NCBI GenBank assembly: GCA_023129235.1
Contig: JAGMCN010000059.1
Span: 1 to 37,979 of the forward strand
Origin: Caldifarciminota bacterium
Lineage (GTDB): Bacteria > Hydrothermota > UBA3073 > JACQXS01
Direction: 5' to 3'
DNA length: 37,979 bases
Made by a program: the position numbers and the translations under genes. The stretch's first letter is position 1, and each line of letters starts with the position of its first letter. The notes beneath the pieces are model-generated. The model was not told where the DNA came from and did no database searches. It saw only the letters and a list, made by a program, of their open reading frames with translations. This document shows positions 10,071-37,979 of the stretch, one piece after another.

Positions 10071-10760
10071 ATCTGGTCGACTAAACCAGATATAAAACTA
10101 AGCATAATTTAAATCAAGCTAAGGCATAGGCAAGAGAACTTAATATACAAAGATTTTTCCAAATCTTTTTCAGCTTATTTAAATCTAACCTAAGGAATCA
10201 AAAAATAACCGATAACAAGTAAATCTAATAAGGATCTTCTCAGATCTCTTTCAATTCAATGCAAACCAAATTAACCGATTAGAACTTAATACATTTGGTC
10301 TAAATTTCTTTAAACCTCTTTCAACTTAATTTAATCTAAGTCAACGTAAGCAAAATGAAGCCAAGAACAATTGAAGTTACTAGACTTTTTCGAGTCTCTT
10401 TCAATCTAATTTAATTGAATCTAACACAAATCAAATAAAGATATGGCAGTACGGTTAAAACAATTAACCGTCTTTCAACTTAATTCAATTTAGTAGAGAA
10501 TAAATAAACCTGATGTAAGCGAACCGAATTTAGATTAATAGAACCAAACACTTGGTTCCCTTCCAATCTAAAGTAATACAAAAGAAACGAACCCAAAGCA
10601 AAACAAAAGAACTGATTGTAGTACACTATCGTCTTTCAATCTAAACTAGTTAAAAGCAATAAAGAATAAGAGAAACAAAAATAGGAAAGACAAAAATATA
10701 TCAAGCAAAACCAACGGAACTAAGTAGAACTAGTTTTTAAAACCAGTCCTCTTTCAATTT
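10071..10760 (-). repeat. Non-coding array of about 9 degenerate hairpin repeat units
   Basis: Hairpins at 10071-10091, 10151-10166, 10233-10246, 10297-10316, 10383-10396, 10452-10470, 10541-10558, 10614-10630, 10729-10747; most preceded on the minus strand by (T)TAGATTnAATTnAnnTTGAAAGA. Confidence 0.85.
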
Positions 10761-10817
10761 AATTCAATCAAAACCAAGATAACATAACCAACTTTAAATT
10801 ATATCTTGTTTGGACTT

Positions 10818-10831
10818 GGAAATTAACTTCC
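10818..10831 (-). promoter_or_regulatory. Stop-codon-anchored hairpin GGAAGTTAATTTCC (copy 1, one wobble)
   Basis: Overlaps TAG stop of ORF 10831-11046; same element at 26308 and 31381. Confidence 0.6.
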
Positions 10832-14677: not shown

Positions 14678-14974
14678 TTATATTTTCTTCTTTCTCTTAT
14701 CTTGATATTTGTTATTGAGTAGCTTCTTAGCCTTTGTGAGGTCTGGTCTTTCTATTTCTTTCCGATTAAGGAACCAATCTATTAGGTTCTGTTCTATCTC
14801 ACCAGGTTTAGTAAACTGGAGTAAGGCTAAGGCTCTTTCAAAGTCCCATTCTATTATACCTTCTATTTCTACCTGGCGGCCCGGGTCCTTTTCTGCATTC
14901 AACTCTTTCTCATACCTACTAATCTCGTTCTTGAGATACTGAAGTGCACGAAAAATTGTATATTGAATTAACAT
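14678..14974 (-). CDS. Hypothetical protein
   Basis: ORF preceded by conserved leader motif. Confidence 0.6.
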   Translation of the reverse strand: MLIQYTIFRALQYLKNEISRYEKELNAEKDPGRQVEIEGIIEWDFERALALLQFTKPGEIEQNLIDWFLNRKEIERPDLTKAKKLLNNKYQDKRKKKI

Positions 14975-15076: not shown

Positions 15077-15102
15077 TCGCTTTCCGGTGCGAGGTGAGTG
15101 AC
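15077..15102 (-). promoter_or_regulatory. Repeated leader motif copy 1: GTCACTCACCTCGCACCGGAAAGCGA
   Basis: Near-identical to 16018-16043; core shared with 15616-15628. Confidence 0.6.
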
Positions 15103-15128
15103 TAACTCTTAAGCGTTGATATGAAAAA

Positions 15129-15163
15129 AAAGCAGACAGTTTAACAACCGCCTGCCTTTTTTA
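15129..15163 (-). terminator. Rho-independent terminator
   Basis: Minus GCAGGCGGTT-GTTAA-ACTGTCTGC (wobble-tolerant stem) then TTTTTTTT after ORF 15171-15455. Confidence 0.8.
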
Positions 15164-15170
15164 TCATCCT

Positions 15171-15455
15171 TTATTTCTTCACGAAAGGCTTAGCATCTGG
15201 GTAGGCAAAGACTACAAAATCTGGGTCTCTCTTTCCATCTCTCTTCCTTTGATTAGGTAAGCAAAGGAAACCGTCTCCATAGTTCACTTCCATTAACTTA
15301 TCGCCTGTCTTATCAACCAATACATTATCTTTGTCCCTGATTTTACTTTTAAACTTCAGGGAATAGCCATTCACTTTATCGACTTTGAACAAGCTTGCCA
15401 CGATTACTCCCCGTGGCGCCTGTTGAGTCTTAGTGTCAAAAAGTAATTTAGCCAT
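15171..15455 (-). CDS. Hypothetical small protein
   Basis: MAKLLFDTKTQQAPRGVIVASLFKVDKVNGYSLKFKSK...; own terminator. Confidence 0.65.
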   Translation of the reverse strand: MAKLLFDTKTQQAPRGVIVASLFKVDKVNGYSLKFKSKIRDKDNVLVDKTGDKLMEVNYGDGFLCLPNQRKRDGKRDPDFVVFAYPDAKPFVKK

Positions 15456-15615
15456 GTTTGTTTAGCTAGTGATTAGTATCCTCTATCCGACCTTTGGCTT
15501 GGATTCAGCGTTTAAGGTAGAGGAGAGATTTTATTAATCTCGGGATTCTCGAGATTAATTGCTCTCCAGCAGAAGAGCGAAGAAGCCCAGCAGGGCGACT
15601 AAGCAATATCTTCTG

Positions 15616-15628
15616 CGAGGTTAGTGAC
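15616..15628 (-). promoter_or_regulatory. Repeated leader motif copy 2 (core GTCACTAACCTCG)
   Basis: Core shared with copies 1 and 3. Confidence 0.5.
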
Positions 15629-15651
15629 CTCTTCTCCGCTACTAAGAACAA

Positions 15652-15681
15652 AAAAAAGGCGAGCAAAAAACCCGCCTTTAT
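15652..15681 (-). terminator. Rho-independent terminator
   Basis: Minus GGCGGG-TTTTTTG-CTCGCC-TTTTTTT after ORF 15696-15923. Confidence 0.75.
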
Positions 15682-15695
15682 TTTTAGTCTGCCTC

Positions 15696-15923
15696 CTAAG
15701 CTTTCACTCTATCATCCAATAGATTTATCTCCTCAGAGTATTCATGATAACCCTCAGAACAATAAGTCTGGTAATCTGATTCCATTACCCACCGCTTACA
15801 TGTCGGACAATACTTAATCAATCTTCCTTTAAACATATAGTTACCTTCGAGATCCCTCAACTCTTCTTGAAGTGTATCCTTGTCAATCTCTTCCCAGGTA
15901 CGCAACCAGTTTATTCTAACCAT
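15696..15923 (-). CDS. Small zinc-binding protein
   Basis: YCPTCKRWVMESDYQTYCSEGYHEY. Confidence 0.65.
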   Translation of the reverse strand: MVRINWLRTWEEIDKDTLQEELRDLEGNYMFKGRLIKYCPTCKRWVMESDYQTYCSEGYHEYSEEINLLDDRVKA

Positions 15924-16017
15924 GGTTTTAGTATAAATAAAGACAGCCTATACAGCTGTCCAAAATCTCTCGGGAGTAGACTAATTTCCCTAGGGATTTC
16001 ATTAATGAAGAAATCCC

Positions 16018-16043
16018 TCGCTATCCGGTACGAGGTCAATGAC
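16018..16043 (-). promoter_or_regulatory. Repeated leader motif copy 3: GTCATTGACCTCGTACCGGATAGCGA
   Basis: Differs from copy 1 at four positions. Confidence 0.6.
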
Positions 16044-16165: not shown

Positions 16166-16303
16166 CTAGCCTATTCTTAAACATATAATTACATTGGTCG
16201 GCCCCTGCCCACAGACAGCCCACTCGTAACAACTAGAGCAACAGGAGTAACAACTAGAGTAACAGGAGTAACAGCTAGAGTAACAAGAACAGACAGTCCA
16301 CAT
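16166..16303 (-). CDS. Possible Cys/Ser/Tyr-rich microprotein
   Basis: MWTVCSCYSSCYSCYSSCYSCCSSCYEWAVCGQGPTNVIICLRIG*; built over a 21-nt tandem repeat; no clear RBS. Confidence 0.25.
   Translation of the reverse strand: MWTVCSCYSSCYSCYSSCYSCCSSCYEWAVCGQGPTNVIICLRIG
16228..16290. repeat. 21-bp tandem repeat, 3 units
   Basis: AACAACTAGAGCAACAGGAGT / AACAACTAGAGTAACAGGAGT / AACAGCTAGAGTAACAAGAAC. Confidence 0.9.
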
Positions 16304-16583
16304 GTAACGGTCCTAATAAACACAAATTAGAAATAAAAAAAACAGAAGCATCAGCTTCTATGTGTAAAGAACCCTAATATATAAGCAGGAGGGAAGAGAG
16401 AGAAATCGCTCAGGCTTAAAGAGAGAGCTACGTTGGAGGAGAAAAATCAATAAAGAACTCCAACATGGCCAGGGAGGTCAAAGGTTGAGTTGATGATGCT
16501 GAGCGAGAGAGCAGCGAGGGGAAAAAATACAAAAAGACCCAGCTGCGATTTAAATAATCTCCTGCCTATAGACCAAGGTTCTT

Positions 16584-16945: not shown

Positions 16946-17110
16946 TTAATATATAAAGAACGGTTTCTTCTTAGCGTGAAGGCATTCGAGACACACTATT
17001 GGCGGTATCTTTGCCTTCTCAGTAAGAACTCCGATAGGTTTCCCGCAAAGGCTACAGGTCACCCTATAATAGATTTCTCTAAAGTCGTCTTGGACTATGG
17101 CACCTTTCAT
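16946..17110 (-). CDS. Zinc-ribbon microprotein (54 aa), below the ORF-track cut-off
   Basis: GGAGG SD 7 nt before ATG; MKGAIVQDDFREIYYRVTCSLCGKPIGVLTEKAKIPPIVCLECLHAKKKPFFIY*. Confidence 0.8.
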   Translation of the reverse strand: MKGAIVQDDFREIYYRVTCSLCGKPIGVLTEKAKIPPIVCLECLHAKKKPFFIY

Positions 17111-17119
17111 TTAATTCCC

Positions 17120-17960
17120 TCCACCCTGGAAGCACCTTTGACCCCGGAGAGGAGTATTTCATCCGCGGAGACTGGCCGGAACTTCCAGGAAGGAAGGAAC
17201 TAAATCTTTTGGGACCGCCAAGGATTTGCACCTTGGATAATATAGAATGGCTAATGACTAATATGGTTTCAGAAGGTCTCTACTCGGTGCTAAGACTTTA
17301 TGCCCAATGCCAAGCCTCGTTAGTTTCACTACTCCTGCACACGGATTGTAGTTACTTGTCACCACCCGCCTTCCCGGTATGGCTATATCTTACGTATAGT
17401 GTCTACCTATTCCACCACAGTCCCATAATTTCCTCAGGGCGGAGCTCGCACTAGCAAAACGAGCACCACCAGAAGAAACTAAGTTCCGTTCTGTCAATAT
17501 ACCGTTGTAGTTAACTCTATACCACCAATTGGACTTTGGTATATTGCCTTAGTTCTTCTGTTCTACCTATAAAATACGGATTCGATCCCCTCACCCTCAA
17601 CACTATGATTTCAAGACGAAACACCGTTCTCCAAATGTTGAGAGGCCTCGCAAACATTCCAGCAATAACGCTGAAGGTGAGAGGAACTAATTCTTTCTGG
17701 CAGAGACACATATATTGCAAGCCATCAGTCCATCGAATCTTTAACGATTCCCTAGACAGATGAGCTATCCCTGTTCAAAGGGGGTGGATTAATATGAGAA
17801 TGACTTGGATCCGCGTAGATTAAGTCTCTGCCTTAGTAGCGTTTTTACACGCTCTTTGTTGCTTGGATCGTTAACGCCACTCTTATAATACACATATCCC
17901 ACCCGGAAAGAATTATCTCTTTAGTGGAGTCAAAATCTTTGTCTGAAATTTATTTACTCT
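17120..17960 (-). ncRNA. Candidate large structured non-coding RNA island
   Basis: Raised GC relative to flanks, no convincing CDS, many long perfect or wobble-compensated helices on the minus strand. Confidence 0.55.
17210..17424 (-). ncRNA. tRNA-Leu-like domain interrupted by ~130 nt
   Basis: 5' half GGGACTG-TG-GTGGAATAGGTAGACAC-CTATA-CGTAAGA-TATAG; 3' half CCAAGG-TGCAAAT-CCTTGG-CGGTCCC-A; 7/7 acceptor pairing GGGACTG/CGGTCCC. Confidence 0.45.
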
Positions 17961-18237
17961 TTGGGTCAGTTTGCCCAGTTGTTATTTCTTGACTTTGAGT
18001 TGCGGCTAGTTTTCGTAGTGATTCTTCAAGAACCTTTTTAATTCCGTGACTTGCTTTACAGAATCTAATTCTGATAAGGTCTTTTACTGCTTTATTTTGA
18101 CGTTCATTAACTATTGAACTATCTATGATAGTTAAAACTTGACCAACTAATTGACAATTAACTTCTTCTGAAATTGTCCCTCTGATAAAATATAGTAGAT
18201 TTTCAAAGGGATTTTCATGAATAATTTTATTTGACAT
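17950..18237 (-). CDS. Hypothetical protein flanked by a 14-bp inverted repeat
   Basis: 95-aa ORF between TTTAGTGGAGTCAA (17920-17933) and TTGACTCCACTAAA (18259-18272). Confidence 0.6.
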   Translation of the reverse strand: MSNKIIHENPFENLLYFIRGTISEEVNCQLVGQVLTIIDSSIVNERQNKAVKDLIRIRFCKASHGIKKVLEESLRKLAATQSQEITTGQTDPKSK

Positions 18238-18380: not shown

Positions 18381-18521
18381 TTATTCTAACCACACGGCCT
18401 TGTTCTTTTTAAATATACACTCACTGCAAAGAACCATCGGAAAGCGTTTACAATATCCTATTTCTTTACCACAACTAAAACATTGGATCTTATTCCACTT
18501 ATGTTTATTAAAAAGCCCCAC
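18381..18521 (-). CDS. Zinc-ribbon microprotein (46 aa, GTG start), below the ORF-track cut-off
   Basis: AAGGAGG SD; VGLFNKHKWNKIQCFSCGKEIGYCKRFPMVLCSECIFKKNKAVWLE*; paralog-like to 16946-17110. Confidence 0.7.
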   Translation of the reverse strand: MGLFNKHKWNKIQCFSCGKEIGYCKRFPMVLCSECIFKKNKAVWLE

Positions 18522-18557
18522 CTTAGACTTCACCTCCTTGAAGTTTTAAAGAGCAAT

Positions 18558-26307: not shown

Positions 26308-26321
26308 GGAAGTTAACTTCC
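26308..26321 (-). promoter_or_regulatory. Stop-codon-anchored palindrome GGAAGTTAACTTCC (copy 2)
   Basis: Fills the spacer between TAG stop of 26321-26650 and ATG of 26061-26306. Confidence 0.65.
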
Positions 26322-29184: not shown

Positions 29185-29911
29185 ATTTTTGAATCACTTG
29201 TTTAAAGTTAAGTTTTGATTTTTCGACCTTTTTACAAACGTCTTTATAATTACAGAATTTGCATAACCAGGTTTTATCTACAGGCGGAATCTTTTTTTTC
29301 TCCCAGTATTTATTTAAAGTTTTAAGTTCGTCTGTTACTTTCTTGAATCGTTCTTTTTTAAATAGGAAAGAAAATTCTTCTCGAACTCCTCCTCCTCTAT
29401 CAACATAATAAATTCTTGCTTCTTTAAGATCCGGCCATTTCTTCTTAGCAAAATATACATAGGAAGCTAATTGTTGTTTCTGAAAATTTTCTACCTGTTC
29501 TCCTTTAGATTTTCTAGATCTTCTAAAGAATGCTTCTGGTCTTTGAGTTTTTATATCTATTAATACTTTCTCTCCCTGGAGCTCAATCAGAAGATCAAAT
29601 CGTCCTGAGTACTTTAGTTTTTTATCTCTTAGGCGTTCTTCACAAGCAATAAGAACTCCCATTGATTTTGCTGCTTTCTCTCTCCAGGCATGGCCCGCAT
29701 TTCCATCTTGAGCCACAAATCGAATACGATAGGGAGTTGGATTTGAAACACTAAGTCCCATTCTTCGAAAATAATGTTTTCTCATACAGAGACCTAAAGA
29801 TGAAGCATGCCACCAATCATTATCTCTATGCATTCCAAACTCTTTTTCTCTTCTATCCAAAAAAGATCGGAGGACTTCATCGAACGATCTAAAGTTATTT
29901 GTCTTTTTCAT
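29177..29911 (-). CDS. Cas4/RecB-like PD-(D/E)XK nuclease
   Basis: YSGRFDLLIELQGEKVLIDIKT...QQLASYVYFAKK...LCKFCNYKDVCKK. Confidence 0.85.
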   Translation of the reverse strand: MKKTNNFRSFDEVLRSFLDRREKEFGMHRDNDWWHASSLGLCMRKHYFRRMGLSVSNPTPYRIRFVAQDGNAGHAWREKAAKSMGVLIACEERLRDKKLKYSGRFDLLIELQGEKVLIDIKTQRPEAFFRRSRKSKGEQVENFQKQQLASYVYFAKKKWPDLKEARIYYVDRGGGVREEFSFLFKKERFKKVTDELKTLNKYWEKKKIPPVDKTWLCKFCNYKDVCKKVEKSKLNFKQVIQKYA

Positions 29912-31380: not shown

Positions 31381-31394
31381 GGAAGTTAACTTCC
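31381..31394 (-). promoter_or_regulatory. Stop-codon-anchored palindrome GGAAGTTAACTTCC (copy 3)
   Basis: Between TAG stop of 31394-31690 and ATG of 30610-31380. Confidence 0.65.
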
Positions 31395-36473: not shown

Positions 36474-37979
36474 TTATTGACCTTTTAATCTTATCTGCCG
36501 ATAAGTTTTATTTAAATGCACTGTACCTGTAATCTTAAGAATCCAAGCTGGAAGAGCATCATCTTGACTAAATTCTATATCTGATTCTCGATAATAAATT
36601 ACCATTGAACCAACATCTAAATTTATAGTTATAATTGTACTTGAATCTAAAGCATTGAAATGATGTACTGGACCATTCGCTACTTCATTTAGAGACAATT
36701 GAATCTTACCCCATTCCGGATCTCCTACAATTGTAGGACTTCCGCCTGCTCCATCTGACCAAGTTGACCAGCCTTCAGCTGTATACCCAGGACCAGGATT
36801 TTGTTCACCCCAGGAAAGACACCAGGTATCAAGAAAAGTGGATCGACTTGAAGAACTACTTGAGCTTATTGATTCAGAACTTGAAGAAGAACAACTAGAA
36901 CTTATTGATTCTGAACTACTACTTGAGCTTTGACTTTGACTGCTTGAACAAGAACTAGATGAGCTACAGGATGAAAATTCATCCCAACAAGTTATTAGAT
37001 CGTCTATAATATTTACAATACTTGAACTTGATGAGCTACTAAAAGATAATGAACTACTAGATGAACTTGAATAAGATGAACAACTGCTTGAAATACTAGA
37101 ACTAAACGAACTAGAAGAACACGAACTAGAACTACTTGAAGAACTACTTTGACTTGAGGATGAACTAAAGCTAGATGATGAAAATGAGCTAGATGAAAAA
37201 CTTGATGAGCTTGAAGAAAAAGATGAAGAACAGGAACAAGACGAACAACTAGATGTAGAAGGATCTCCGTATTCCTCAAACATGAAATCTGGCTCTCTTG
37301 TAAACCAACTATCTGCTCCTACATTGTATCCTAAAGAGGTTCCGCCAGCATAAGTTGGACCGGTTTCATCTTCTCGCCACTGAATATTTTCAGGCCATGC
37401 TCCCGAAATTTTTGCAACTATCGCATATTGAGTAGAAGCTGTTAATGAAGTTCCGTTTCCTAAATTAATCTGATACCAAAGTCCTGGACTTATGTTTGTA
37501 ATATTATTTCCGTTTAAAGTTCCACTACATAAATCTCCACCAGTAGGTAAGCCAGCCGCTGTATTTCTGATGCTCACAGTCAAAGTACCTGGAGCTACGC
37601 TTCTAAAGATTTTCATTCGGACGCATTTAATAGTGTGACCTATTGAAGGAGTGAAAGTCTGTCCCCTCCAAGTTTGTTCATTAATACTATCAGCTACATC
37701 ATCTCCAGTATTATAAAATTCAAACATCGTCATTCTCATACAGGGACCTGAAGATGAACTTGAACAAGATGAACAACTACTGGAGAAACTAGAGGAAGAG
37801 CTACAACTACTACAACTGCTTGAGCTTGAAGAAGAAAATGATCCTTCATCTCCATATAAATCAAACATCCAATCTTCATCACCCTGAGCTAAGTCACCCC
37901 AGGTTCCTCCCGAATCATCTGAATCCAGTGCATTTCCTCTGGTATAACTTCCGGCTGTATTATCAAATCTCCATCGCCA
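36474..37979 (-). CDS. Ser/Cys-rich virion surface protein, 5'-truncated by the window edge
   Basis: Frame stays open upstream of 37868 (WRWRFDNTAGSYTRGNALDSDDSGGTWGDLAQGDEDWMFDLYGDEGS...). Confidence 0.75.
   Translation of the reverse strand, partial: WRWRFDNTAGSYTRGNALDSDDSGGTWGDLAQGDEDWMFDLYGDEGSFSSSSSSSCSSCSSSSSFSSSCSSCSSSSSGPCMRMTMFEFYNTGDDVADSINEQTWRGQTFTPSIGHTIKCVRMKIFRSVAPGTLTVSIRNTAAGLPTGGDLCSGTLNGNNITNISPGLWYQINLGNGTSLTASTQYAIVAKISGAWPENIQWREDETGPTYAGGTSLGYNVGADSWFTREPDFMFEEYGDPSTSSCSSCSCSSSFSSSSSSFSSSSFSSSSFSSSSSQSSSSSSSSSCSSSSFSSSISSSCSSYSSSSSSSLSFSSSSSSSIVNIIDDLITCWDEFSSCSSSSSCSSSQSQSSSSSSESISSSCSSSSSESISSSSSSSRSTFLDTWCLSWGEQNPGPGYTAEGWSTWSDGAGGSPTIVGDPEWGKIQLSLNEVANGPVHHFNALDSSTIITINLDVGSMVIYYRESDIEFSQDDALPAWILKITGTVHLNKTYRQIRLKGQ

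Follow-up and report, generated by a model that had tools for sequence, protein, structure and literature searches.

We identified a short asymmetric sequence element repeated in front of three small genes of a phage contig. The repeat is confirmed as real, orientation-specific and beyond chance. Judging from its sequence and surroundings, we tentatively interpret the element as a phage-specific transcription-initiation signal within a composite cassette of terminator, spacer and element.

The window (the whole stretch of DNA analysed, 37,979 nt) is an incomplete phage contig that is cut off at both ends, with nearly all credible genes on the minus strand. These include genes for a terminase large subunit (GpA-like; phrog_675, PF05876), a DUF2201/VWA protein, an ATPase and a DnaB-like helicase, together with a primase domain, a Cas4-like nuclease, an HNH nuclease and a GroES-like protein. 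The DUF2201/VWA protein and the ATPase are typical of large phages. The binning of the contig into its assembly does not prove the host.

Copies of the element and the genes behind them

The elements, terminators and open reading frames (ORFs) of the region are as follows, in the order of the minus strand.

16334 to 16361, minus strand: third terminator, about 290 nt 5' of copy 1
16018 to 16043, minus strand: copy 1, 26-nt element GTCATTGACCTCGTACCGGATAGCGA, taken directly from the sequence, 94 nt 5' of the ATG of ORF 15696-15923
15696 to 15923, minus strand: 75-aa ORF with a cysteine-histidine pattern, unit of copy 1, no family match
15650 to 15679, minus strand: rho-independent terminator 3' of ORF 15696, with 21 nt from the end of its T-run to copy 2
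15616 to 15628, minus strand: copy 2, 13-nt core GTCACTAACCTCG, 5' of the ATG of ORF 15171-15455
15171 to 15455, minus strand: 94-aa ORF, unit of copy 2, no family match
about 15123 to 15162, minus strand: rho-independent terminator 3' of ORF 15171, with 21 nt from the end of its T-run to copy 3 (fold -24.6 kcal/mol, direct sequence)
15077 to 15102, minus strand: copy 3, 26-nt element GTCACTCACCTCGCACCGGAAAGCGA, 102 nt 5' of the ATG of ORF 14678-14974
14678 to 14974, minus strand: 98-aa ORF, unit of copy 3, no family match

The two 26-nt copies and the core lie where an earlier note on this DNA had placed them, and the long copies differ at four positions (22/26 identical), as it had reported. 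Its range of about 95-160 nt between element and ATG is borne out by measured distances of 94, 147 and 102 nt, the second being 147 nt when counted from where the 26-nt stretch ends and 160 nt from the end of the core. Two of the three copies do lie just after a terminator (15679-15655 and about 15162-15123).

The 22/26 identity between the leaders of copies 1 and 3 was never equalled in 1000 dinucleotide shuffles (shuffled maximum 20), and this pair ranked first among the 1925 pairs of 190-nt gene-upstream regions in the window. Only two minus-strand 26-mer pairs were at least 22/26 identical and not of low complexity, one being copies 1 and 3 and the other lying inside two genes. The three-way match over the 13-mer (34/39) was not reached in 150 shuffles (shuffled maximum 31). 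Taken pairwise, copy 2 is weak, matching copy 1 at 11/13 positions (reached in 307/1000 shuffles) and copy 3 at 12/13 (22/1000), so that the case for including it depends on the three-way match and on its position. A weak match to the second half of the element (CTGGAGAGCAA, 8/11) was found 3' of the copy-2 core, past a 44-nt self-complementary stretch, and is suggestive only, with an estimated chance of about one case in ten. Core identity among the copies is 11-12/13, and copies 1 and 3 agree at 11/13 positions of the second half. The core (GTCAYTNACCTCG) has three matches in the whole 1.71 Mb assembly, all in front of these three genes.

As in other phage genes, the in-frame codon score is positive for each of the three ORFs, although ORF 14678 scores no higher in frame than in its +2 frame. 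Their GC content (0.36-0.40) compares with about 0.27-0.44 in other ORFs of the window. A small Cys-rich frame at 16166-16303 did not have a positive codon score, and a 42-aa frame considered as an upstream open reading frame was rejected, with a coding score near zero.

The element might alternatively have no regulatory role and be the remnant of an old duplication or, at module boundaries, a recombination linker. The region does hold duplicates (zinc-ribbon ORFs 16946 and 18381) and small orphan genes. However, similarity ends abruptly at the element, with flanks at most 8/20 identical directly before it and at most 7/20 directly after, and no homology among the three downstream proteins could be demonstrated by sequence: the alignment score of 35 between proteins 14678 and 15696 was reached in 133/2000 shuffles. 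Sharp edges and proteins without demonstrable homology together make a recent duplication unlikely. The identical terminator spacing described below also speaks against a leftover or linker, an explanation that we consider highly improbable.

Terminators, spacing and a putative start of transcription

Along the minus strand, a terminator (16361-16342) is followed by copy 1, ORF 15696-15923, a terminator (15679-15655), copy 2, ORF 15171-15455, a terminator (about 15162-15123), copy 3 and ORF 14678-14974. The spacing from T-run to element is identical in copies 2 and 3, at exactly 21 nt, which the earlier note had not remarked upon. The two spacers are themselves unlike in sequence, agreeing at 6/20 positions. 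No terminator was found near copy 1, and none was seen after the end of ORF 14678-14974. Elsewhere in the window a strong terminator (3222-3199) precedes a gene without the element, so that terminators in this phage are not generally followed by it.

The strong terminators before ORFs 15171 and 14678 imply that a start is needed within the next 150-200 nt or so, unless they leak; leaky terminators might make a local start unnecessary. A consensus scan of the minus strand was negative for sigma70-like sites in both leaders that follow a terminator, those of copies 2 and 3; promoters of an unknown class would escape such scans. Copy 1 has its own TATAGATA repeats upstream and a 9/12 sigma70-like site (16158-16130). 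The element is not AT-rich and is not known to resemble any promoter class; T7-like, N4 hairpin and Bacteroidota promoters gave no convincing fit by eye. Comparison of the 40-odd ORFs of the window with family libraries revealed neither a phage RNA polymerase nor a sigma factor. A search of the assembly for the single-subunit polymerase family (PF00940) gave no match, but no control match either, and is hence uninformative.

A promoter reading is favoured by a sharply bounded short sequence that keeps a constant distance to two terminators, in leaders without another recognisable promoter. The element would be the promoter itself, or part of a promoter read by a phage or host factor, and each of the three small genes would form its own transcription unit. 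The terminator would close the preceding unit, the element 21 nt behind the T-run would start the next transcript, and a leader of 100-160 nt would then lead to an ATG without a Shine-Dalgarno sequence; the ATGs of the window are mostly preceded by A-rich stretches lacking such sequences. We infer the start of RNA polymerase at the element, the factor reading it and any timing in infection. In an unlikely, more far-reaching form of this reading, the element would belong to a new, non-AT-rich promoter class used by an unrecognised phage factor or polymerase, with the T-run as a promoter part at the fixed 21-nt offset. Stop and restart of transcription would then be one signal.

The element might instead be the site of a phage repressor or elongation-blocking protein, acting on transcription through gene boundaries in the manner of an operator or stoperator. 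Its 13-nt asymmetric core is intergenic, always runs along transcription and lies twice behind terminators, and thus resembles the stoperators of cluster A mycobacteriophages, which are 13-bp asymmetric intergenic sites oriented with transcription (PMC9283540). Stoperators number over twenty in L5-like phages (PMC9283540), in contrast to three copies here, both in the 38 kb and in the assembly. A stoperator is also a site to which the immunity repressor binds. No repressor was recognised in the window, and such a site would be redundant beside efficient terminators. We regard a repressor site as very unlikely.

Structure of the leaders

The earlier note had left a promoter and an RNA role both open, and had drawn attention to a possible hairpin (CTCG-yACCGGAwA-GCGAG). 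The evidence leans towards a promoter or DNA recognition. The hairpin argument fails in one of the three copies, and the hairpin is short in another. The hairpin is present in copy 1 (6 bp), but is reduced to 4 bp in copy 3, which reads TCGC-ACCGGAAA-GCGA and then T, and is absent from copy 2. We do not claim a common helix enclosing the motif: copy 1 could form one, copy 3 only a weak one, and in copy 2 other folds compete. Suboptimal folds of the three leaders gave no consistent common fold and no shared helix around the motif. The feature common to all three copies is a short asymmetric sequence rather than a fold.

An RNA element in the 5' UTR is a serious rival explanation, though less probable than a promoter. 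Near the 5' end of the transcript, the motif would form a conserved single-stranded stretch (GUCAYUNA) with a hairpin behind it, and a protein or small RNA would bind it, controlling stability, translation or termination. The copy-2 leader folds far better than its shuffles (z -5.1), and the copy-1 leader extended by 17 nt on its upstream side reaches z -4.8; the loop ACCGGAWA is common to copies 1 and 3, with the closing pair changing from G-U to G-C; hairpins lie 3' of the core in all three copies; and the adjoining 17.1-17.8 kb is strongly structured as RNA (z -5.2). However, the z-score is only -1.7 for copy 1 from the motif on and -1.9 for the copy-3 leader, and several other upstream regions of the window reach -3 to -4. 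The Rfam covariance models gave no match at the gathering threshold, nor any credible one up to an E-value of 5, and three sequences are too few for covariation. Two known kinds of site were also rejected. A CsrA site, prompted by the GGA in the loop, does not fit copy 2, which has no GGA loop there, and no CsrA was found in the incomplete assembly; an integron attC site did not fit by eye.

The structured neighbour is an apparently non-coding stretch of about 690 nt on the minus strand (17100-17790; -234.9 kcal/mol, 0/20 shuffles) that has two stems, each about 20 bp long, and is likely a large structured phage RNA, with no Rfam match. It contains halves resembling a tRNA-Leu(UAA) (17424-17211, minus strand). 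These comprise an acceptor (GGGACTG/CGGTCCC), a D-arm, an anticodon arm (CTATA-CGTAAGA-TATAG) and a T-arm; an insertion of well over 100 nt separates the last two. Neither Rfam nor ARAGORN without introns called it; ARAGORN with introns joined the 5' half to a T-arm-like sequence at 16855-16839. The structured region is flanked by the zinc-ribbon paralogues (16946-17110 and 18381-18533; score 65, shuffled mean 23). Further along, a 21-nt inverted repeat (17913-17933/18259-18279, 86% complementary) encloses ORF 17950-18237, whose 5' and 3' UTRs could pair.

Known systems, relatives and other repeats

A cassette of this kind is a broadly familiar control element. Promoter early stem-loops (PeSLs) of T4-type phages (Arbiol 2010 and Comeau 2014, as cited in PMC4503421) are, as summarised in that source, likewise composite intergenic cassettes of a stem-loop terminator and a start signal between small variable genes, the start being putative here. 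The host-type early promoter (-35/-10) of PeSLs was not found in the leaders of copies 2 and 3, only three copies occur here, one without a terminator, and the phage, seen from an incomplete contig with a GpA-like terminase, may not be T4-like. By analogy with PeSLs as so summarised, the simplest reading is that the cassette would work like them, yet is not a PeSL by membership.

The start-associated sequences (SAS) of cluster K mycobacteriophages, whose function was left open, are also short asymmetric repeats in one orientation before several unrelated small genes, and extended SAS forms carry inverted repeats (PMC3203893). SAS (GGGATAGGAGCCC) lie immediately 5' of the start codon (PMC3203893), whereas 94-160 nt separate the element here from the ATG and its sequence is unrelated. 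Lambdoid-phage morons (PMC1524935) offer a further parallel, as lone small ORFs that carry their own terminator and, probably, a start of their own. The small genes here lack a recognised promoter and the distinct GC content of morons, theirs being close to that of other window ORFs.

In the collections searched, we found no relative carrying the element and no close relative of the phage lineage. The full element pattern had no match in viral contigs or genome contigs. A looser pattern matched twice in viral and six times in genome contigs; these eight were rejected, none being a small-gene leader behind a terminator and most lying inside long ORFs. Among 147 genomes of phylum relatives, none besides the assembly itself had the element. 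Protein searches from ORFs 15171, 14678 and 36474 and from the terminase gave no close relative, and phage records held no relatives of the three small proteins and no DNA match to the region. The terminase shared at most about 27% identity with phage isolates among the tblastn matches listed and at most about 35% with IMG/VR contigs, and none of the distant terminase and DUF2201 relatives (at most about 35% identity) carried the core.

The element alone leaves the understanding of phage gene control unchanged. Repeated regulatory elements between small orphan genes indicate how a phage turns its accessory genes on or off and which factor it brings; element, terminators and structured-RNA island provide a concrete handle for mapping the transcription programme of this lineage.

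We additionally identified other repeats in the window. A minus-strand pair (37733-37758 and 29779-29804) is identical at 24/26 positions and lies inside two genes that seem unrelated, the product of one having a Ser-rich N-terminus and that of the other being Cas4-like. A stretch of about 0.6 kb that is free of long minus-strand ORFs (10159-10778) contains several diverged, AT-rich repeats of 20-30 nt (TCTTTCAAyTTAATTyAATC). Finally, a perfect palindrome (GGAAGTTAACTTCC) occurs at 26308-26321 and 31381-31394, immediately before the ATG of ORF 26061 and that of ORF 30610. Near copies lie at 10818-10831 and 593-606; five matches with at most two mismatches were found against 0.29 expected, an operator-like pattern.
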